Assembly (NCBI RefSeq): GCF_964204865.1
Contig: NC_135261.1
Span: 10,540,001 to 10,604,000, forward strand
DNA: 64,000 bases
Origin: Styela clava
Lineage: Eukaryota > Chordata > Ascidiacea > Stolidobranchia > Styelidae
Direction of reading: 5' to 3'
Shown: in pieces, positions 14,868 through 48,639 of the stretch
How the letters are laid out: every line of letters starts with the position of its first letter
Numbering within the stretch: the stretch's first letter is position 1
Position numbers and translations under genes: made by a program
Notes under the pieces: generated by a model
Seen by the model: the letters and a program-made list of their open reading frames with translations, nothing else
What the model was told of the DNA's origin: nothing
The model's database searches: none

Positions 14868-16556
14868 CTACCGACAAAGACAAAAATGTTTGTCGTATTT
14901 TCGAGAGTATATTGCATACAAAAAGTGTCCCATAATAATGAAGAATGCCGAAATCAAAATGAGAAGTCCGAATTGATCCGGATGTGGAAGAGCAATTACC
15001 AAAACAAAGTGAATCATATCCATGAAATTGTTGATAGAACTTTGAACGCCGTTCACGACACCTCTTTCTTCTTCGACTACTTGTTCTTGGAAGAGCTGAG
15101 TAACCGACAAATCAAAAGTCCAAAGACCTATTCTAGCCAGAACTGCACCTGCCATAAGCATCGATAAAGATAAATAGGATGATGGTGGGTCAACGCCGTC
15201 CATACATTTGAGAAATAAACTTGAATTTGAATTAGTTGTCCCGAAGAAATCTTCTCCGAAATTACGAGAACCCAAAGCAGGCCTTGTTGGAGGTTCGAAT
15301 GAAGCTGTAGTAGAGACTATATCATGTTGATTTTGAGGAAGAAGAAAAAATGGGCTTCCTGGGGCAAACACGGAATAAACGCATGGTCCCAAGGTAATGA
15401 TGTGTGTCACAGATGCAAACTGACCAGTGCGAATTAACCCAAACTTTTTACACACTGGTATAAAGGCAAATGTTGCAATAATTCCAGTAATTGCACTGGC
15501 ACCCATGAGAAGACCGACAAAAAATTCACTAAAGCACTGGTTATAAGCGTAGGAAACAGTTATCGAATCAAATCCGAGCACAGTCATATAAAGACAGGAA
15601 AGTCCCAATCCAGCGAGTGCGACTGACTGGAACATAAAGATTCCCCACCCCTTAGGAATAATGATTATAAAATAGAATGCAGTTTTCCACCAAGAAGAGG
15701 ATTGATCTGAGGGTTTCTTGGTTGTGGAGTTGTCTGTAGAACCGTAACCGGCTTTTTCATTTTTTGGGTGCGATGAAATTAGTGTCTCGTCATCAGCATC
15801 TGAGTCGTTACCAGGCGGTTCTTCAACAGAATCCGTATATGACCCTGAGGCCGATTCTAGCAGAGGTGCCTTATCGTCAGATGAAACAGTGTCTGATTCG
15901 TCCTTGATAGGTTGAAGAATTTTCTTACGAGCAAGCGCCGGAGTATTTCTGTAAACGATTTGCAACATTATGTACTCTATGATCATTGAAATCAAGTTCC
16001 ACCCTGCAACAAAAGCTATCCCGAAAGTCATTGATAGAAGTGTAATTATCTGACCACAGACCATCGGAGCAATGAGTTTTGTGAATAAATCGATTCTTCG
16101 GAGCATTGAATTCAGTCTTGTCAGTAATGCTTGGTCTCCGTCGGCTATGACCACAATCCAATCCTTTTCAATGATTATTCGGTTAGCAGTGTAAGCCAAA
16201 TGTGCTATGGAGCCTAGAATAACAGCTGCTATTTTTGAAAATAGTAAATACCAATCTCCCGGCACAACTGCAAGCTTATTCACCAATAAAACTGCAGCAC
16301 AAGCAACAATTGCGAGATCTTGTGAGACGACTCCAACACGAGCAGCAGGGAGTCGTCTGCTTCGGTCTATCATGTTTCCAATCATTGGCCCCAATATCAA
16401 AACCGACCCTGCTAATGACAGTCCGTAGATTGCCGGGAGAAGTAGACTATCCGATGCCAGGTCCATTAGAAACAGAGCAGCCGCAAATTTCCACATTCGG
16501 TCGCTCCATGTCGATAGAAAGTGACTGATATAAATGAGCCTGGACTTATTAACCAT
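14868..16556 (-). CDS. SLC40A1: Ferroportin (iron exporter) paralogue 1, intronless
   Basis: A single 562-residue open frame for ferroportin, the multi-pass plasma membrane Fe(II) exporter of the major facilitator superfamily. Family signatures: SHFLSTWSDRMW (residues 11-22, with D19 matching human D39), LLLPAIYGL, IDRSRRL, DWIVVIADGD, LRRIDL, AGWNLISM, CLYMTVLGFD, ARIGLWTFDL and GVVNGVQSS. A hydrophilic loop of about 90 residues, rich in Ser/Asp, separates the two halves as expected. The start is the ATG with good context (accATGG); the frame runs further upstream but offers no ATG there. The position equivalent to human C326, the hepcidin-binding cysteine, is Ser331 (GFDSIT). Vertebrate SLC40A1 has several introns; this gene has none. 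It lies head-to-head with the paralogue at 20673-22346. I saw no iron-responsive element in the 5' flank. Confidence 0.95.
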   Translation of the reverse strand: MVNKSRLIYISHFLSTWSDRMWKFAAALFLMDLASDSLLLPAIYGLSLAGSVLILGPMIGNMIDRSRRLPAARVGVVSQDLAIVACAAVLLVNKLAVVPGDWYLLFSKIAAVILGSIAHLAYTANRIIIEKDWIVVIADGDQALLTRLNSMLRRIDLFTKLIAPMVCGQIITLLSMTFGIAFVAGWNLISMIIEYIMLQIVYRNTPALARKKILQPIKDESDTVSSDDKAPLLESASGSYTDSVEEPPGNDSDADDETLISSHPKNEKAGYGSTDNSTTKKPSDQSSSWWKTAFYFIIIIPKGWGIFMFQSVALAGLGLSCLYMTVLGFDSITVSYAYNQCFSEFFVGLLMGASAITGIIATFAFIPVCKKFGLIRTGQFASVTHIITLGPCVYSVFAPGSPFFLLPQNQHDIVSTTASFEPPTRPALGSRNFGEDFFGTTNSNSSLFLKCMDGVDPPSSYLSLSMLMAGAVLARIGLWTFDLSVTQLFQEQVVEEERGVVNGVQSSINNFMDMIHFVLVIALPHPDQFGLLILISAFFIIMGHFLYAIYSRKYDKHFCLCR

Positions 16557-17223
16557 GGTTATTTTACTTAAATAATTTATCTGTATATAAAGCAAGTATT
16601 AGTTTTGCACCACAATTGTACGCAAAATTAGGCAATTCTACATATATATATATATGTATTATGATATACTGTATATTGTGCTCGATAAAACTCGGAACAA
16701 TCTTTTCTGGGATTTCTCGAATCATGACTGTACGAAATTAGAACATTTTATCATATTGAATGAAATGGATATTGTATGAGTATTTGCATTAATGTGAGAT
16801 GTTACGTTCATACGGCGGCCCTGATTTTTATAATAGTAGGATGTGTATTGATGGTTATCTCAGAGAAAAAGTGTGTAATAAATGTAATCAGCATTAAACA
16901 ATTTTTATTTAGCAAGCTAATATCTTAGTTTTGGGCTTTCAACAGATCAACTAGAACTTGCCAGTTGAGAAGTTCCCATTTCCTTTTCAAATAAAAAAGT
17001 CAAAGAGCTTGAGTGACATATTATTCTATCAATTTCGCTATTGACCCAAATAAAATATCAAATCTAAAATATTTATTATAGCAGGCTATTAATTTCTAAG
17101 TGCTATATGTGACTGGTAACAAATCATGCCTCTTTTGTAGGCTACATGAAATTCGATAACGCAAGAACATAACAAAATCCAGTAGAAAAAATTTAAAAAA
17201 AAATTCAGTAACAATGCCCAACT
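16557..17223. other. 5' flank of ferroportin 1
   Basis: No gene is seen. It contains a short (TA)n tract at about 16638-16656 and presumably the promoter of the minus-strand ferroportin. I could not define a TATA box or an IRE-type CAGTGN hairpin with confidence. Confidence 0.3.
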
Positions 17224-20672: not shown

Positions 20673-22346
20673 ATGATGAACAAATCGAAGCTGATTTACG
20701 TCAGTCATTTTCTATCGGCATGGGGGGACCGGATGTGGAATTTTGCAGTTGCAATTTTTCTCATGGATCTAGCATCCGAATCTTTACTTTTGCCAGCTGT
20801 ATTTGGCTTAACACTATCGGGTTCTGTTCTCATGTTTGGGCCGTTGGTCGGGGAATGGATTGATCGATCTCCTCGTTTACGTGCAGCACAGACGTCTTTG
20901 ATCACACAGAACAGCACAGTTGCAGCGTGCGCTATCATTCTTCTGGTGCAGAAAATCGCCCATATAGAAAGTAATGCATTCCTTCTTTTTGTGAAGATAA
21001 GTGCAGTATTCCTGGGTGCAATTGCAAGACTTGCAAGTGTGGCTTCATCCATTATAGTCCAGAAAGATTGGATTGTGGTTATCGCAGGTGGAGATGAAAC
21101 ATTTTTAACATCATTAAATGCAATGTTGAGGCGAATTGATTTGTGTACAAAATTTCTGGCACCTCTTGTCTGTGGACAACTTATTACTCTTGTTTCATTG
21201 ACATTTGGATGTGCATTTGTGGCTGGATGGAACCTTGTTTCAATGTTTGTGGAGTATATTTTATTACGCATTGTATATGATCACACCCCAGCTCTTGCAC
21301 TCAAGGTGAAGAAATCAAGAAAGTCTAAGAGGTCTGACGATGCTTCGAATAATCCAATGCTTGTTGATTCTCCAGATGCTGACGTGGGGGAAGATTGCAC
21401 AGTGAAGGATGAATTACCACTTCAAGAAATAGATAATGTGTCAAAAGAAACTCTGGTTGAATCCCCAACTGCGAACAAAGAATCTGATAAAAATGACAGT
21501 GCAAAAAATGAAAATAATCAGCAATTACAGACATCTATTTGGAGAAAAATTTTCTCTTTTCTTTTGATCATTCCCAAAGGTTGGAAGCAATATATGTCTC
21601 AATCAGTTGCCAAAGCTGGAATAGGTTTGGCATGTCTTTACATGACTGTACTGGGACTAGATGCCATCACAATTTCATATGCTTACAACCAATGCTTCAG
21701 TGAGCTCTTGGTTGGCATACTTCTTGCAGTAAGTGGTCTGACAGGAATAGTTGCCACTTTCATATTCACACCACTGAGTGCTAAAATTGGGATAATCAAA
21801 GCAGGATTATTATCATCGGTTGCCCAAATCTTAACTTTAATACCTTGTGTGATGTCTGTATTTGCACCAGGTAGTCCCTTTTTTCTTTTACCTCAAAATA
21901 AAGCACTAGAAACAACTGCCACACCCACATTCACACCATATAACACAATTGATGAAAATATCACCATTTCAAACAATCATTCCTCTATAAATGATGGTGT
22001 ATTTTTGAAATGTATGGATGGTATTGATCCTCCTCCGTCCTATCTTTCCCTAACGATGCTTACTGCAGGCATAGTGCTTGCACGAATTGGTCTTTGGGGA
22101 TTTGATTTGGCTGTGACACAACTCTTTCAACAACATGTTCCAGAACAAGAGAGAGGAGTTGTTGGTGGAGTACAAAGTTCCTTAAATTATTTGATGGATC
22201 TTATGCATTTTATTTTAGTAATTGCTCTTCCACAGCCAGACAAGTTTGGTATTTTAGTGATTTTGTCAGCCATTTTTGTGACAGCAGGTCATTTTTTATT
22301 TGCATTGTTTGCTCATAAAGAATTAGGGGGATTTTTATGTTGTTAA
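20673..22346 (+). CDS. SLC40A1: Ferroportin (iron exporter) paralogue 2, intronless
   Basis: A single 557-residue open frame, a clear second ferroportin. Signatures: SHFLSAWGDRMW (D19), LLLPAVFGL, IDRSPRLRAAQTSL, QKDWIVVIAGGDE, MLRRIDL, AGWNLVSMFVEY, CLYMTVLGLD, ARIGLWGFDLAVTQL and GVVGGVQSSLNYLMDLMHF. It ends in a Cys pair. The central hydrophilic loop is acidic and longer than in the N-terminal half. The hepcidin-binding cysteine position (human C326) is Ala331 (GLDAIT), and the site of human Y64 is Phe (AVFGL). Start chosen at the first of two adjacent ATGs, which aligns with the paralogue's start. A poly(A) signal AATAAA lies at 22823-22828. The lack of introns in both copies suggests descent from an intronless, possibly retrocopied, ancestor (inference). 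Confidence 0.95.
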   Translation: MMNKSKLIYVSHFLSAWGDRMWNFAVAIFLMDLASESLLLPAVFGLTLSGSVLMFGPLVGEWIDRSPRLRAAQTSLITQNSTVAACAIILLVQKIAHIESNAFLLFVKISAVFLGAIARLASVASSIIVQKDWIVVIAGGDETFLTSLNAMLRRIDLCTKFLAPLVCGQLITLVSLTFGCAFVAGWNLVSMFVEYILLRIVYDHTPALALKVKKSRKSKRSDDASNNPMLVDSPDADVGEDCTVKDELPLQEIDNVSKETLVESPTANKESDKNDSAKNENNQQLQTSIWRKIFSFLLIIPKGWKQYMSQSVAKAGIGLACLYMTVLGLDAITISYAYNQCFSELLVGILLAVSGLTGIVATFIFTPLSAKIGIIKAGLLSSVAQILTLIPCVMSVFAPGSPFFLLPQNKALETTATPTFTPYNTIDENITISNNHSSINDGVFLKCMDGIDPPPSYLSLTMLTAGIVLARIGLWGFDLAVTQLFQQHVPEQERGVVGGVQSSLNYLMDLMHFILVIALPQPDKFGILVILSAIFVTAGHFLFALFAHKELGGFLCC

Positions 22347-40815: not shown

Positions 40816-41121
40816 TATATATATATTTTTTTTGTTTCGGATCAGAGTATGTATGGTCTGCCTCGGATCAGTGTTACATATAATAACACGTCATACCCGA
40901 GTCGTATCGGTATTAATCCTCGCAATCACATTGCCGCATATGCGGCGGTCAGATGGCATCCACTCATCACTTCCGTTGGGTTGTTTGATGGTATTCTCAG
41001 GAGTATGCTACCATTTGTGGGTGGCATAGATAAAAGGTTCATTACATTTATTGTTGTTAGGATCTGGTTTTCTCGTTATTTTATTGTTCGTACCCCGCAA
41101 GTATTTCTTTCCAATTAGGTT

Positions 41122-44100
41122 TCAAATTGGATGTGTATACCTTGGGAAATTTTTGTCAAGTTGGTTGATAAAATCGGACCATTTTCGAGTTGTTTTGGGG
41201 ATAAGTTTGTCCTCGCTCGGATCGACTGTTCTATTTTCTATATCTAACTTGATTTTGAAGTTGAATATTGCTAATTTGAATATTAAAAATAGTTTTATGG
41301 TTATGGTCTGAACTGTCTGGTTGGGCATGGTGTAAGAGTTGTAGAAGATATTTTCTCTAGATATTTGTACTGGTATTTTAAGGGTCCTGTTCAGTTTGCC
41401 CGTGGTTTTGGAAAGGTGTCGTGAAATGTAAGAGCAGTGTAAGAAAATGTGTAGGGTATTGTCTTCACGGCTTCCACAGAATTTGCATTTTAGCAGTTTT
41501 CTTTGGCCGTGCGCATCGCTAAACATAGATCTTTTCCGCGCTTTATTCCCTAAGATGTACCCATCAGCCACTATTCTGTACGAACATATCTTCTCTTTGT
41601 TTGTTGTTTTATGTTTCAGAGTTCTTTGCTTTACGTGAACGCAAGTCCAATCTATTCCCGTTGGGTATGGAGACTCAGTTTTCATGTTGTATAGGAGATT
41701 TCTGTATATGTCTTTGTGCTTCATGCCAGCCCACTGTTGTTTGGTAAGATGTATTCCCTTTGTTGTATCCAAATATTTTTGCCAGATTTTGGGGACGAAG
41801 GGGAGATGTGGGGTAGAATTTGTATATAAGCTTGGGTTGTTTTTTATGATTTTGGATCCTAAAGCATAGATTGCTTCCTGATGCCAAAAAAGGTAAGGTG
41901 TATCGATATTGCTTAGTATTTTTATTCGCTCTGCTATACATGCTGAAATTTTAATTTTGATATTGGGCATATTTATGCCGCCTTCTAACCATGGCCGTTG
42001 TAGCGTGGTTCTCTTTATCGCCTCCATTCCCTCGGGGAACCATAGGTATTTAGCAACTAGGTGTTGTACCTTGTTGAGATATACTGGCGGTATTTCTACA
42101 AATCTCGCGTGATATATTATTAGTGACATGAGCAGGGAATTTATTACTGTTAGTTTTCCAATCCAGGTGAGTTTTCGTGTTTTTAAAAAGTTTAATTTTC
42201 TGGTTATTTTGACAAGTGTTTCGTCCCATGTTATTGTTTCCCGCCCTAATCCATAATATATCCCCAAGATTTTTGCTGTATGTTTATGGTGGGTATTATA
42301 GTTGGATTTCCGGAGACGTTGTGCTGCGTCAGTTGTGAGACTCAATATCTGGGTTTTATCTATATTAATTTTTTGTCCTGCTGCTTTTTCGTATTTTTTG
42401 TAATTCAAAGAAGATTTGTTGAATGGAAGTTATATCTCTCACTGCGCAGGTGGCGTCATCGGCAAATTGGTCCAGTTTATGTGTGAATTTTCCAAGTTTG
42501 ATGCCATGTATGTCGGAATTTCGTTGTGCTGATCTAATTAGTGGTTCTGCGTTTAGAATGTATAACAACATGCTCAATGGGCATCCTTGTCGAATTGATT
42601 TTGATTGGGGAGCTCATTTTACCGTTAATATCTATGTAGTTGTAAATTTCTTTGTACATGTTTTTGACGATATTGGTTATTTTGGGGCTGAGGCCGATTT
42701 CGTGTAGTACTTTAAAAAGGAAGTCATGGTCTATTCTGTCGAACGCTTTCAAGTTGTCGATCATTACTAAATATCCTGGAATTTGCTTGGTTTGACAGTA
42801 GCGGACAACCGCTTCTAGGTTGTAATGGGCATCAAATATACTTCGTCCAGGTAAGGTACTCTTTTGCTGTTGGCTTACCAATGTGTTGAGTGGAGATTCT
42901 AGTCTTTTGGTTAAAAGCCTTGCAACCAGTTTGTAGTCAAAGTTGAGATTCGAGATCGGTCGCCAATTTTTTAGTAGATTTTTGTTTCCCTTTTTAAATA
43001 TCAATTTCACTCTGGCATAGTGTGAGCTTTGCGGTAGAGCGCCGAAGCTCAGGATAATATTAATCATATTCGTCAATTTTTCTTTTATCATGTGCCAAAA
43101 TGTTGTATAGAATTCTTTGCTTAGCCCGTCAGGGCCGGGGGATTTATTATTTTTCATATCTTTTATAATAGAGAATATCTCGTCCTCGTTTGTGGGTTTT
43201 TCTATCTCTTCGTTTTGATCTTGGCTGAGTTGTGTGGCGCTCATTTGATTGATACAGTGGTGCTGGTGAGATTCGTCTATTTTACACTTCATGCCCCATA
43301 GCTCGTTATAGAAATCCTCTACCGCCTTAGTTACTTCGTTTTCACTTGTAACTGTCTTCCCGTTTACATTTTGGATAGAATCCATCGTTGTTTGTTTTGC
43401 GCGTGTTTTGATCCTATCATAGAAGTACTTCGTTGGTTCTTCACCTTCTTCTTGATCTTCTATGCCCGCCAGGATTGTTTTATAATTGGATTTGTTGTCA
43501 ATCAAGTTTTTTAGCTGTACCCTAAGTCTTTCCAGCTTTCTTACGTCTGTACTATTCTTGTTGGCCACTGTATTCGCAATGTTTTGTCTTATCAATTGTT
43601 CAGTTATATTGTCTTCTTTTGCTTTTTTTATTGAGTATGCTATAGTTTGTTTTTTGGTGTTTAGTTTAAAGTTGTCCCACCAATCTAGTAAAGATTCGAA
43701 ACTTTCAATGTTTATCAAGGCCCTATTATATGTATTTTTTATAATTTCCAAGTAATCTTTTTCTTTGTATAGCGAGATATTGTTCCGCCACATCCCCCGA
43801 CCCCATCTTATATTTTTCAAAACTCTGAGTTTAATATATGGGCATAGAGCGCGATCGGCTACGGTGTTCACGGCATGTCCTACGTATGTCTTTACCATTA
43901 TTGCGGTGCCCTTCCTGAAGGTTTTGTCTTCGGGATCTAATACGGTAAGCGTGTTAGGGAAAATGTGGTAACCCAGTTTTCCTGCCCACTCTTCCACTAT
44001 GCTGTTTCTGATTTTATTGACCTCCTGTAGGCATAGAATGTCAGGTTTTTCATATGATACGAATCGGGCTAGTTTCGTTTTATGATGGTTAAGCCCGTTT

Positions 44101-44132
44101 ACGTTTATTGATATGATTTTCATTTCGCTCAT
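41122..44132 (-). pseudogene. LINE ORF2: endonuclease-reverse transcriptase, broken
   Basis: Three frames in series. Frame A (44132 to about 42600) starts MSEMKIISINVNGL and ILCLQEV, the first motifs of an APE endonuclease, then jumps from VADRALCPYIKLRV to RWGRGMWRNN. The central endonuclease motifs (the GDFN and SDH regions) are absent, indicating an internal deletion of several hundred bases. The RT follows: KSPGPDGLSKEFY, RPISNLNFDYK, PGRSIFDA, MIDNLKAFDRIDH. Frame B (about 42600-42400) carries RQGCPLSM and FADDAT, the RT active-site box. Frame C (about 42400-41122) carries GQKINIDKTQ, the thumb, and a C-terminal zinc motif CKFCGSREDNTLHIFLHC. The B/C shift lies at an A run. The first Asp box reads MIDNLKAFD, as in other L1-like RTs. 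Confidence 0.85.
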
Positions 44133-44322: not shown

Positions 44323-45639
44323 TTATGTCTGTGGGCGCTCGGTTGTGGCGGTGGCTTTCTCCTTCTTGGGGTTAGGCGGTGTGCACGAGGATGATGCAGA
44401 GCTCAAATTAAGTCTATCTCGTTTATTTGCGCCACTGGCTTGTCCAATTGGATTGTAGTCACTGTTTCCCAAATGAGCGGGGGCCGAGTTATTAATCCAC
44501 GTATCAGAAAACGAGGAAGAGTCAATGGATTCGTATCCTCTAACCATTCCTTTTACGTATGATTGTCTTGTCATTTCATGTACTATGGGGGTCTGTCCGA
44601 TTGTTGAAGTTGGTTTTAACTTTCTTCTAGGTGTTCTCGGTATGTCCAACGGTTTCTCTAACTGGGAGTCGTCTCTGCTCAGAGACCAATCTTTCGTTTC
44701 GTCGTTTAAGTCATCGTTTTCGCAGTTTGAGGAGGTTTCGTTATCGCTTATTGCTTGTGTGCTCTCCTCTTCGGTTTGTGGTTTGCTGTTTGCCTCTTCT
44801 CTTAGCAATGTTGAGGATAGCGGCGAAAGGCACATGCCTGCATTAAGTTGTGGTACGTTGTGACGGTTTGTATTTATCCCTGTTTTGTTGTTAATATTAG
44901 CGGTTCTTTTAGATATGTTCCAAGCGGTTGGTTCTTCCTGATTGTGTCGGTCGATACGTTTTTTGCATTGTTTTACTAGGTGTCCTTCCTCTTTGCAGTA
45001 TCTACATACCGGTGTATTCTGACATGCGACGAATGTATGGCCCTGTTGTAAACACCTGCCGCATGTCGGAGTGTATAACTCTTGCGGGAGATACGTTTTG
45101 CATCTTATTCCATCGAATATGATATAGTCCGGTAGTTTATCCTTGTTAAAGTCTGTGATGAAAAAAGCGGTATAACCGTTATATATTTCCGTGCCTTTGT
45201 GCCAGTTTCTCATTGCGTTTTTAATTTTGCCGCATTCTAGGTTGTTTATGATTGCCGCGGCCCTCGCAAACGGTGTTTCATCGGGCATGCCTTTGATTGA
45301 AATTCTTGTCGGTGTACCTGCGGGTAGCATGAAGTGGATAGGCCCATACATTGAATTCAACTTGCCACCGGTTGCGCTTAGGAACTCATCCCTGCAACTA
45401 GACGTTTCGTTTGATGTAGGTTTAAAGAATATTGTCCAGAGACCTCTTCTCACTTCAAATAATCCTTTTATTTCATTGTAGTACTGGTTGACATCGGGTG
45501 TTGTTTTTAAAACTCCAAGCAGTCCTTCAAAATTTATGTTGTCCTCCGTCTCGATCATCAGAGATCGCGGTCTGTTATTACTTGGTGTGGTCATTACTGG
45601 GGGTATAGCGGCGACTTTTGCGTAGGCCATAATATCCAA
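44323..45639 (-). CDS. LINE ORF1, gag-like with two CCHC zinc knuckles
   Basis: An intact 438-residue frame. The N-terminal part (about residues 30-185) is an RRM-like nucleic acid binding region typical of gag-like ORF1 proteins (TIFFKPTS, ISIKGMPDETP, IIFDGIRCKTYLP). Two zinc knuckles follow, CGRCLQQGHTFVAC and CRYCKEEGHLVKQC, both CX2CX4HX4C. The C-terminal 200 residues are Ser/Thr/Asn-rich and of low complexity. It is expected to bind element RNA. It lies 190 bases upstream of ORF2. The other candidate Met is three codons in (MDIMAY). Confidence 0.85.
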   Translation of the reverse strand: MDIMAYAKVAAIPPVMTTPSNNRPRSLMIETEDNINFEGLLGVLKTTPDVNQYYNEIKGLFEVRRGLWTIFFKPTSNETSSCRDEFLSATGGKLNSMYGPIHFMLPAGTPTRISIKGMPDETPFARAAAIINNLECGKIKNAMRNWHKGTEIYNGYTAFFITDFNKDKLPDYIIFDGIRCKTYLPQELYTPTCGRCLQQGHTFVACQNTPVCRYCKEEGHLVKQCKKRIDRHNQEEPTAWNISKRTANINNKTGINTNRHNVPQLNAGMCLSPLSSTLLREEANSKPQTEEESTQAISDNETSSNCENDDLNDETKDWSLSRDDSQLEKPLDIPRTPRRKLKPTSTIGQTPIVHEMTRQSYVKGMVRGYESIDSSSFSDTWINNSAPAHLGNSDYNPIGQASGANKRDRLNLSSASSSCTPPNPKKEKATATTERPQT

Positions 45640-45686
45640 AGGTATTTAGACTATCTTGTAATTCCAACTATAACTTGTTCCTAAGG

Positions 45687-45717
45687 CTTGATCTTAGCCG
45701 AAGAGCCGAAGATCGAT
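45687..45717 (-). other. Diverged second copy of U2 5' hairpin
   Basis: A 31-base minus-strand segment in the LINE 5' UTR aligns without gaps to U2 nucleotides 1-31, with 25 matches. The 13 bases GGCTAAGATCAAG are identical. GATCTT and AAGATC can pair to close a hairpin. Confidence 0.65.
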
Positions 45718-45749
45718 ACTCAGGTCTAGCTAGCATACGACCTACTACT

Positions 45750-45789
45750 GATACTACACTTGATCTTAGCCAAAAGGCCGAGAAGCGAT
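45750..45789 (-). ncRNA. U2 snRNA 5' fragment (nt 1-40) fused to LINE
   Basis: The minus strand reads ATCGCTTCTCGGCCTTTTGG and continues to GTGTAGTATC, identical to U2 snRNA nucleotides 1-40, including stem I and the GUAGUA branch-site recognition sequence. The match stops at position 40; the next base departs from U2. The fragment starts exactly at U2 +1, with piggyBac coding DNA on its other side, so no snRNA promoter is present and this is not a working U2 gene. Confidence 0.9.
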
Positions 45790-47406
45790 AACTTGTACTC
45801 TGTTTTTGAATGCTTTATGTTGCTGCAGCGAACATAAGTCCCCATTCAAGGCTGAACAAGTGGGAATCAACAACAACAACCGAAATATATGTTCTGATCG
45901 GTCTTCTTCTAAACATGGGGATTGTGAAGCTGCCAGCTTTACATCTGTACTGGAGCACCATGGAGCCTTACAAAACAAATATCTTCAGACAAGCCATGAG
46001 TCGAAATCGATTTCAATTGCTGTACCAGACAATGTTACATTGCTGCACAAGCGACGAACAAAACAGAATTAGAGGGGACAAAATAGATCCAATTGTCCAA
46101 CAATTAGTATCAACGTTTCAGAGGTATTTTTGTCCTTATTTTTATTATTTTATTTTAATAGCAGGCTTCGACCCACCATACTTACCTTGTTTTATACTTC
46201 GTCTTTTCAGGTATTTTTGTCCTTATCAAAATGTATCGGCCGATGAAACCATGATTGCATATAAAGGAAGAGTTTCATTCAGAAGATATATGCCAAACAA
46301 ACCGGTTAAATGGGGCATCATTGCTAGATCGATTGCTGATTCAACAACTGGATACATTTTCAATGTAAAAATAGATTATGGTAATCCAAACTTGGAACAA
46401 CTTCCACCCGGCGTCACAAAAACTTCGAATTTAGTTTTGCAACTAATGGAAAGTCATCTGGATAGAGGATATCACGTATTTGTTGATAGGTATGTTGATT
46501 ATTCGGTATTGATAAGACAAATTAGATAATTTACGTCTCGGCGCCATACTGCGTTCTATTTTAGATAACGAATCATTGTCGGATATATCAATCAATTGCA
46601 TAAACTGTTTTATCACAACCAATTTTTAATAATATTCATTTTTAATTTAGACTCTACAACTCTATCGCATTAGCCGAGGAATTGCAGCGAAGGAAAACAT
46701 CGATAACGGGAACAGTCATGGCAAACCGGAAGGGACTTCCAGCAGAAATAAAAACAAAACTAAAGAAAGGGGAAATCATCTCACTACGAAAAGGACAATT
46801 ACTCGCACTACTATGGCAAGATAAGAGGCCGATTCCAATACTTTCTACGTATTGTAATGGTGACGAGGTCATAGAGAAACAGTTGCGAGGTTCATCAGAA
46901 ACCATAAAAAAACCTACGTGTATTGAACTTTATAACAAATTCATGGGAGGCGTAGATTTGGCAGATCAGTATACCAGCTATTACAACTTCTCTAGGAAAT
47001 CGGTGAAATGGTGGAAAAAAATATTTTTCTGGCTGATTGAAACAAGCGTCTCGAACAGTTATATTATTTACAAATTAACTCGCCCTGAAGGTAGAACTGA
47101 TACACTTCTCAAGTACAGACAAATGGTGATCGATGATCTTTTAGCTGGTGTTCGTACCAGTCAAAAAAAGAGCCCAAAACTCCAAGTCCTCCTCCAAAAA
47201 AAATTAAACTGGCGAACGAAAGACTCAACGGCCTATTACATATTCAGTCAAAAGAAGCGAAACAGCGCCGATGTAAAGTATGCAGCACAAAAACACAAAG
47301 AAGAGAAACAACATATATTTGCATCACATGCTTCGACGCGCCCGCTTTACATCCAGGAAACTGTTTCGCTCGCTACCATACTCTTCTGGATTATCGATGT
47401 AATTGA
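45790..47406 (+). pseudogene. piggyBac-type transposase, 5'-truncated, two introns
   Basis: A DDE transposase of the piggyBac (DDE_Tnp_1_7) family. Visible parts: ISPHSRLNKWES, LLLNMGIVKLPALHLYW, SADETMIAYKGR (first Asp), HVFVD (second Asp), NRKGLP, FMGGVDLADQYTSYY (third Asp), and a C-terminal Cys-rich finger (RRCKVCSTKT, ICITCFDAPALHPGNCF, stop at 47404-47406). The three catalytic Asp are kept. Two introns: 46124-46210 (87 nt, flanked by an 18-bp direct repeat) and 46490-46650. Removing them restores the family's usual sequence at both joins. The N-terminus is missing; coding similarity begins right at the U2/LINE junction. A one-base shift in an A run at about 47163-47169 separates the C-terminal finger from the catalytic part. 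No terminal repeats were found, so domestication cannot be excluded. Confidence 0.8.
46124..46210 (+). other. 87-nt intron flanked by 18-bp direct repeats
   Basis: The sequence AGGTATTTTTGTCCTTAT occurs at 46122-46139 and again at 46209-46226. Splicing GT (46124) to AG (46210) removes one copy plus about 70 unrelated bases and restores FQRYFCPYQNVSADE. The insert is 29 codons with no stop, so retention would keep the frame. Confidence 0.75.
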
Positions 47407-48639
47407 CACTGCAATGGGCAATAGGGCGTTCCAGAATTTTCTGGAGCGCGAAGGACCCCATAAAACAAGTCCTAACGAGTGGGTAAACCGACACCTCTTG
47501 GGTCCACATGGAAGCTCGGTAATAAATTTACTATGTTCGTATGTTTCAAGTACATATGTGTTACAGTTGTATGAATATGCAATGTGACTACTTTGTTTAT
47601 TTTGCAATATGTTATCCTTGTGAGTGACAATAATTGGCCATTATTAATGTTATTGGAATATATAGCGAATGAAGGATATATTTTTATGCTAGTAAACGAT
47701 TTTGTTTTCTTTGTTCAAATTTGATATTTTCGTATAATAAAATGATTCTGATTGCTGAATAAAATGTTCGAATTGAATCTTTATCGCAATGAGAGATCAA
47801 GACAAGTTATCATCAACTTATGTTATAATAGCATGAGAGAGCAATTCCGACAAGATACGCGTGTGTAGGTGAGTTCTTTCACCTACGACTGAAGTGTCGG
47901 AATGAACGATAACTGATGACACCGCTGGGTTCGCCCCTTTCCCGATGAATCAAAAACTAAATACGAGAGAGAATGAATAGGAGAGAACTCTCTCGTTTTC
48001 ACCTTGGCACGGAACGGTAAAATTGAAAAAACTGATCTTGGCATCGAAAGTGAAGCAATAAGTTGAATGAAAGTACGTCCATGTTGGGGATACAATCAAA
48101 TTGAGCAGAACATAACCGCAAGCGAAATTGTTGGAAAATATAACCACCACGTGGCTGATGCTCAGTTTGAAATGAATTAACAGAGCAAATAATGTTAACT
48201 TGGTTCCACTAAAAATGATAATTATTTTAATAAAATAATCGATTTCACAAAAAAATGCGTCTCTGTGTTAAAGTGTTCAATTATCTCATATTTTTGTGCG
48301 TTCATTGCCACGACAATCACTAGCAAATAACTATATCAGTTTATATTACATATTGGAATAATACAATCATAGTACAATAGTACAATAATCGTAAGAAATA
48401 ATAAAAATAAAATGAACAAGAGAGCTATGCTCAAATAAATGGAAAGGAAGACGAGAATGAAATATTTTAACCACAATTTTCTAAAAAATTATATCCTGAA
48501 CGAAGCTGCCAACTGTGGAGCATCGTAACTTCTGAACTTACTAGTACCGGTGGCCAGCCAGACTGCTTCGACTTTACCTGGTCTCGTAACGATGATTATT
48601 CATGCGTATTGTGCCAACATAAATACCAAATGATTCAAA
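47407..48639. other. 3' flank of piggyBac copy
   Basis: No gene is seen. AATAAA motifs occur near 47520 and 47737. I searched by eye for a TTAA-flanked terminal repeat and did not find a convincing one. Confidence 0.35.

Follow-up and report, generated by a model that had tools for sequence, protein, structure and literature searches.

Small-RNA 5' heads, inherited and in part stacked, on a group of L1-like LINEs in Styela clava

A group of L1-like LINEs in the Styela clava genome carries the 5' ends of small RNAs as heads, and one of these heads, formed by nucleotides 1-40 of U2 snRNA, has passed down through a family of dispersed copies. We suspect, with a probability of roughly 0.55, that such a LINE lives in a small-RNA gene, that its RNA starts at the +1 of that gene, and that the 5' end of the gene becomes a heritable head. 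Residence in U2, U1 and U5 genes, and the use of the promoter of any such gene, are parts of this reading that we infer.

Results

The U2-headed copy in the window

The window, which is the whole stretch of 64,000 nucleotides analysed, corresponds to C16:10540001-10604000, and the genome searched comprises 376.6 Mb. The original prediction, that on the minus strand a perfect U2 1-40 segment leads directly into the 5' UTR of a like-oriented LINE, is borne out. The head (45750..45789, minus strand) matches L007, a U2 gene in this genome, at 40/40 positions, the LINE runs in the same direction as the head, and the Rfam U2 model (RF00004) matches with 48.1 bits (E 7.7e-7 with 30 kb searched, E 1.5e-8 with 601 bases searched). 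A chance match at 45789-45750 is ruled out by this identity and the Rfam E of 7.7e-7. On the other side of U2 +1 lies piggyBac-type transposase DNA (45810..47587, plus strand), as had been claimed, with two open frames that match DDE_Tnp_1_7.

The head is followed by a 5' UTR (45640..45749, minus strand) that is common to L031-L034, with a join 9 nt shorter in L034, and that L035 shares only from nt 78 of the 150-nt query. Inside it, a degenerate U2-like stretch (45687..45709, minus strand) resembles U2 nt 9-31 at 20/23 nt (87%, E 0.002) and, judging from the sequence, may be an older head behind the fresh one. The segment between the two U2-like pieces (45718-45749, minus strand) has no Rfam match; it starts AGTAGTAGGTCGTATGCT, which we take to be faintly let-7-like, perhaps by chance.

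Downstream of the 5' UTR, ORF1 (44323..45639, minus strand, 438 aa) has a CCHC zinc-knuckle match of 20.1 bits (E 6.8e-4; Pfam cut-off 20.8). ORF2 is broken, with 428 bp near 43889 missing relative to L032, L033 and L035. Its first part (42534..44132, minus strand) gives Pfam matches to an APE-like endonuclease and the start of a reverse transcriptase, and its last part (41122..42408, minus strand) is an open frame with no Pfam match at E 0.001. The 3' UTR (40826..41121, minus strand) ends in CTGATCCG and an A-rich tail. No target-site duplication was recognised for this copy, the longest shared string being 7 nt versus up to 11 in 50 shuffles. The window also holds two long single-frame ferroportin genes, at 14868-16595 (minus strand) and 20673-22346 (plus strand), with FPN1 matches of E 3.6e-133 and 2.4e-140.

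One inherited head in family A

A 150-base query from the 5' end of the window copy hit LINE copies at six places, of which C16 has two and C9, C3, C13 and C1 have one each; we call these six family A. In this genome search for the 5' UTR that follows U2 nt 40, which the original prediction had proposed, five of the six copies proved to be U2-headed, starting at U2 nt 1 (three copies), 2 and 4; the sixth is 5'-truncated within the UTR. The DNA upstream of the U2-headed copies is mutually unrelated. The U2 join is identical in the window copy, L031, L032 and L033, and 9 nt shorter in L034. Compared across their initial 1.9 kb (1.4 kb in L031), members of the family diverge by 0 to 1.03%, with zero base changes within U2.

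Five informative sites are compatible with a single tree, in which L031 pairs with L033, L032, L034 and L035 form a second group, and the window copy stands separately. The shorter join of L034, on C13, sits between direct repeats and this copy differs by only 0.21% from L032, so that its 9-nt deletion is most simply derived. Since the same join occurs across the tree and the L034 deletion is most simply read as derived, three groups of copies within family A must have received the head by descent. This inheritance rules out a template switch confined to the window copy. A head found on this single copy only had been named as grounds for doubting the prediction; the junction recurs across the family, and further families have U2 heads of their own. 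L034 is also an inverted insertion, with its inverted 3' part lying against U2 +1 at a distance of about 3 nt, an arrangement as expected of twin priming in which the second cDNA ran to the 5' end of the RNA.

The ORF2 of L033 has an Exo_endo_phos match (E 2.3e-14) and thus an APE-type endonuclease. ORF2 frames without stops reach 1142 aa in L033, 1169 aa in L038 and 1163 aa in L039, and the best match among solved structures is human L1 ORF2p (E 5.9e-69).

U2 heads acquired in several families

Genome-wide, a U2 core pattern has 17 matches at up to 3 mismatches, of which 13 are perfect, namely nine LINE heads and four U2 genes. Besides family A, the heads belong to family B (U2 2-35 in L036 and U2 1-33 in L037, the sole two full B matches in the 5'-region search), family C (U2 2-36 in L038) and family D (U2 4-50 in L039); L091 has a fifth, diverged U2 head (U2 10-35, 96%). 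The nine heads of families A-D all start at U2 nt 1, 2 or 4, and the 3' ends fall at 33-40 in A, B, C and L091 and at 50 in D. In protein, families A-D share 32-44% identity over ORF1; over ORF2, the identity among A, C and D is 38-44%, and the B protein, compared in three pieces, gives 30-56%. Given that the heads equal present-day U2, that their boundaries differ and that the proteins are far diverged, the simplest reading of these sequences is that U2 heads were acquired repeatedly, in separate events.

The LINE heads match the canonical U2 genes rather than the variant U2 genes of a tandem array on C6 (17.53-17.56 Mb, L016-L030, and 17.78-17.79 Mb), which has a 1169-bp period and a changed 5' end.

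Duplications abutting the head were recognised in 5/8 U2-headed copies tested. Those of L032 (57 nt), L039 (16 nt, outside its U5 piece) and L038 (13 nt) exceed all 50 shuffles; those of L037 (10 nt) and L036 (8 nt) are not above the shuffles by length, yet sit right against the head at one end and the tail at the other. In each copy with a recognised duplication, the U2 head falls within the inserted unit. The search for the longest shared string, run on 15 cases, recognised no duplication in L031, and it gave strings at chance level or misplaced for the window copy, L031, L033, L057, L062 and L074; short head duplications were seen by eye only in L033 (GGGATCT) and L074 (AAGGTCT). The 57-nt duplication of L032 (C9:13112000-13121999) is unusually long. 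Both the unrelated flanks of family A and the duplications that end at heads make insertion into a resident U2 gene unlikely, in agreement with what had been argued for the window copy.

Search for copies in U2 genes

The copies predicted to sit in U2 genes at the same site did not turn up: searches with the 5' UTR, with U2 nt 41-74 and with a poly(A)-U2 pattern revealed no U2-resident copy in this assembly. U2 nt 41-74 has 13 matches, nine of which were inspected and found not to adjoin a LINE, the remaining four being copies of the C6 array; a genome-wide search for poly(A) at most 25 nt from U2 sequence of nt 41 onwards gave 0 exact matches, and none of the 3' flanks inspected is U2. The U2 promoter region is absent from 9/9 head flanks, in a comparison where U2 genes themselves share a weak block only (E 0.003-0.04 between non-tandem genes). 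For U1 and U5, the top matches included no resident copy. Three U2 matches without the 5' core, considered as possible resident copies, are truncated U2 pseudogenes, those at C16:20336897 and C16:20360708 (L109, L110) and, of the array type, that at C17:17329093 (L111). With few canonical U2 genes, U2 insertions may be rare or removed by selection.

The claim that a source element sits at nt 40 of a U2 gene and is transcribed from the U2 promoter is therefore left partly standing, with the heritable, shared head in its favour and the lack of any U2-resident copy found against it. Relatives that lack U2 and never occur in U2 genes had been named as evidence to the contrary; the second half of that description matches our findings, the first is false for families A and B, and most wider relatives carry non-U2 heads or none.

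The U2 head ends at 33-40 adjoin the heptamer GATCAAG, one mismatch from GATTAAG, the site in the spliced-leader-like (SL-like) gene described below. In shuffled U2, 0.14 heptamers that close are expected and two occur, the second being GATTAAT at nt 52, near the family D boundary. U1 resembles the SL-like site no more closely than expected by chance.

Stacked heads

Some copies carry more than one head. In L038 (family C), the U2 head abuts a U1 head with no nucleotide between U2 nt 36 and U1 nt 1; the latter piece extends to U1 nt 39 and has the same sequence as a U1 gene. Two other family C copies, L097 and L098, start within the U1 piece and have no U2. In L091, U2 nt 35 meets a second SL-like exon (15/15 nt, E 5e-4) with a 2-nt overlap. 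In L037, U2 nt 33 gives way at once to nt 1 of an SL-like stretch (89% over 19 nt, E 0.007), a stack that is weak alone since the E value about equals that of the best control matches, 0.008.

The order in L039 (family D) is a U5 piece and then the U2 head. The U5 piece is 100% identical over 55-57 nt to U5 genes on C1, ends at about U5 nt 57, and scores 35.4 bits in Rfam (E 6.5e-4), below the gathering score of 40. The 16-nt duplication ends where the U5 piece starts, and alongside that piece, before the U2 head, stand about 29 nt of no recognised origin. Between the U2 head and the family D 5' UTR lies a 44-nt piece of a dispersed repeat with more than 30 places among the matches listed.

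The 5' UTRs throughout this LINE group may, at roughly even odds, preserve layer upon layer the succession of small-RNA genes that housed each lineage, with every move borrowing a new promoter and leaving the 5' end of the former gene within the element.

Many U1 matches occur at C5:2.7-3.68 Mb, where L101 (C5:2732800-2733500) holds a U1 gene beside a second SL-like gene with the exon ATTATTTGCTGTCCAAG. Large arrays at C13:6.26-6.46 Mb and C1:19.46-19.58 Mb match U5 at 91-93% over about 55 nt and U6 at 92-93% over nt 18-106.

Relatives in tRNA and SL-like genes

The search for relatives of the ORF1 protein gave at least 101 rows, with 96 of 546 candidates scored. DNA upstream of ORF1 was read for 40 of the 101 rows, top-scoring first and then hand-picked in favour of dispersed, distinct copies, with the A and D copies kept separate. 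A sense small-RNA piece was present at the 5' end or target in 27/40 relatives (E up to 0.05), against 2/40 with reversed references. The 27 comprise 16 SL-like and 11 tRNA cases (L088 has both) and one U2 case. One of them, L064, has a 13-nt match (E 0.008) no better than two control matches (L059 and L071, E 0.008), and the count without it is 26/40. Some positives are neighbouring genes or internal remnants; the neighbouring genes are tRNA-Glu at L077 and L078 and a full SL-like gene at L059, L071 and L073, each beside a second match at the element. In 12/40 no small-RNA match was found (L058, L060, L063, L066, L072, L075, L076, L082, L089, L090, L093 and L095), and L070 matches only an SL-like intron beside the tail of a neighbouring LINE. 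Rfam named no U6, 5S or 7SL in the DNA upstream of these 40 copies, even with E values as high as 1 admitted. In a genome-wide search with U6, the matches were taken up by arrays of U6 genes.

Two insertions, of families E and H, are proven to lie inside tRNA genes. Joining the flanks restores an intact tRNA-Ile(aat) in one case (L094/L104, with the 9-bp duplication GCGTCGTGC) and an intact tRNA-Lys(ctt) in the other (L062/L105, with the 7-bp duplication GCGTTGG). L079 seems to occupy a tRNA-Glu gene whose middle has been deleted, with tRNA-Glu 1-30 in front and, by eye, the end of the gene with its downstream DNA behind. In L088, tRNA-Gly nt 4-33 is flush with an SL-like exon, and the region holds further tRNA-Gly-like genes whose upstream DNA, by eye, resembles that of L088. 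The 3' junction of L088 was looked for and not found, so that its residence in a tRNA-Gly gene is probable rather than proven. For the tRNA-Lys piece of L057, no duplication was recognised and no 3' part of tRNA-Lys lies behind the element.

The exon that we call SL-like owes its name to its resemblance to the Ciona spliced leader, ATTCTATTTGAATAAG (PMC7986045, in excerpt). By this likeness, the arrayed gene that houses insertions of families F and I is a putative SL RNA gene; its exon ends in ATTATTCGCTRTTTGATTAAG, followed by GTAAGCT, or a variant of this. The upstream block of the gene was recognised by eye before 5/40 copies (L059, L061, L069, L071 and L073), and three LINE 3' ends run directly into the intron of the SL-like gene (control 0). 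Among the copies that have an SL-like head but not the upstream block are L084 and L087, where the head starts at nt 1, and, by eye, L080 and L083, where it starts at nt 1-2 of a variant exon. A duplication of 10 nt lies at the shortened SL-like head of L067; the lengths in L067 (10 nt) and L094 (9 nt) are within the longest of 50 shuffles, and their weight comes from abutting head and tail. Same-strand clusters of related LINEs occur at C4:23.30-23.48 Mb, C6:19.28-19.69 Mb and C5:7.91-7.96 Mb, and several members on C4 and C6 lie beside SL-like genes.

Discussion

From small-RNA gene to heritable head

In the scenario that we favour, the L1-like LINE group would use small-RNA genes as homes, namely SL-like and tRNA genes and, by inference, U2, U1 and U5 genes. 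An element inside such a gene would be transcribed from the promoter of the gene, and its RNA would start at the +1 and include the 5' part of the gene up to the cut site. The family-A endonuclease may nick the U2 gene near the border of GATCAAGT and GTAGTATC, much as an F-family endonuclease would nick the SL-like gene between GATTAAG and GTAAGCT. If reverse transcription elsewhere then proceeded to the end of the RNA, the 5' part of the gene would be carried along as a heritable head, and a landing in the next small-RNA gene would set a new head before the old one, giving stacks. The window copy would be an off-target descendant, with a family source at U2 nt 33-40.

Capture of the 5' end of a target gene is plausible because relatives are found in tRNA genes and SL-like arrays, and because SL-like heads occur without the upstream DNA of the gene. 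Residence in small-RNA genes would explain why heads start at +1, why they are inherited although the flanks hold no promoter, why boundaries are shared and how stacks form. Some points go against it. Head ends vary (U2 33-40 and 50, U5 about 57) more than one strict cut site predicts, the filler between the heads of family D has no explanation, and the tRNA pieces start, by eye, near the mature 5' end. Since transcription by pol III normally begins a few nucleotides ahead of the mature tRNA, template switching fits the tRNA pieces better.

Template switching was named as the main alternative in the original prediction and stays the main and a serious rival, although we consider it less likely than residence. 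A reverse transcriptase that reached the 5' end of its own RNA would jump onto a U2, U1, U5 or tRNA RNA, or a fragment of one, and copy to its 5' end, and the chimera would later be inherited. This fits the flush joins and the lack of resident copies, both in U2 genes and, among the top matches, in U1 and U5 genes. The inner U1 head of L038, flush at nt 1, is as expected of a jump from an RNA end, and the involvement of several RNAs with several boundaries is also in its favour. However, the identical join in three groups of family A, with flanks that lack a U2 promoter, means that headed copies would need to start their own transcription at U2 +1. Relatives residing in tRNA genes and SL-like arrays, and the ends of 4/5 U2 head types within 33-40, also count against it. 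In L1-type template-switch chimeras, the head is a one-off of each insertion and junctions vary between copies; here the junction is the same in four family-A copies (the window copy, L031, L032 and L033) and differs by 9 nt in L034. Same-orientation chimeras of mammalian L1 with U6, U3 and 28S RNA, which lend support to template switching, have been attributed to ligation or template switching (PMC13174262, in excerpt).

Joining at the RNA level before reverse transcription, by SL trans-splicing for the SL-like heads and by RNA ligation for the U2 and tRNA heads, seems improbable. Trans-splicing is common in Ciona (PMC7986045, in excerpt), and in several copies (L068, L069, L084 and L088) the SL-like head stops where the exon does (AAG, plus one G) and LINE sequence takes over. 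However, other SL-like heads retain seven intron nucleotides, GTAAGCT (L061, L067, L074, L080 and L083), L069 lies behind the upstream block of an SL-like gene, and U2 pieces that end at 33-50 do not correspond to ligation of the 3' end of a whole RNA. An error of assembly, or a LINE inserted into a U2 fragment already present, would suit the window copy and L031, which have no recognised duplication, but is hardly credible for U2-headed copies on eight contigs with unrelated flanks, 5/8 of those tested having duplications that end at the head.

These heads bear on the question of how a LINE replaces its 5' UTR and promoter. The new 5' UTRs of primate L1 show up with no intermediate forms (PMC13174262, in excerpt). 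If these LINEs do live in small-RNA genes, intermediates may be visible here as in-gene copies, dispersed single-headed copies and two-head stacks. Such residence also suggests how an element moves between scarce targets (SL-like, tRNA, U1, U2 and U5 genes), and a route to small-RNA-headed elements, perhaps including SINEs with snRNA heads.

Comparison with known systems

Keno belongs to the Tx1 clade. LINEs associated with small-RNA genes are, as such, already known, as with Keno, Utopia and NeSL (PMC4640811, in excerpt). Keno and Utopia, the latter of the RLE type, are specific to U2 genes, with a U2 3' flank that starts at nt 39, and the family A join at nt 38-40 is near their site (PMC4640811, in excerpt). 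The elements described here share with them the association of LINE and U2, and with Keno an APE-type endonuclease. They differ in that no copy in a U2 gene and no U2 3' flank was found, the U2 5' end being a head at dispersed sites, and in that heads of U1, U5, tRNA or SL-like type are found on other families.

SLACS and CZAR are SL-gene LINEs of trypanosomes, and NeSL is their nematode counterpart in this comparison (PMC4640811, in excerpt). Like SL-gene LINEs, copies here lie in SL-like arrays with 3' ends joined at the exon/intron border; unlike them, they have an L1-like ORF2 with an APE endonuclease, and copies elsewhere keep the SL-like 5' end. In the mammalian L1 chimeras described by Law and Burns (2026, PMC13174262, in excerpt), a small RNA also precedes the LINE in the same orientation as one inserted unit, and the authors raise, as speculation, that L1 gains new 5' UTRs through joins of this kind. 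The heads described here differ in being inherited within families and stackable, in starting at or next to nt 1 of the RNA, and in having relatives in small-RNA genes. Dada elements have similar homes, in U1, U6 and tRNA genes, but are DNA transposons, and the excerpts of PMC3706591 describe no heads on them.

We found no description of inherited, stacked small-RNA heads on long-ORF LINEs among the open-licence PMC papers searched. SINEU is a short non-autonomous element, reportedly a SINE with a head derived from U1 or U2 snRNA (Kojima 2015). By that description, it shares with the present elements a U1- or U2-derived head on a retroelement; the heads here differ in sitting on LINEs with long ORFs, with ORF2 frames of 1142, 1169 and 1163 aa.
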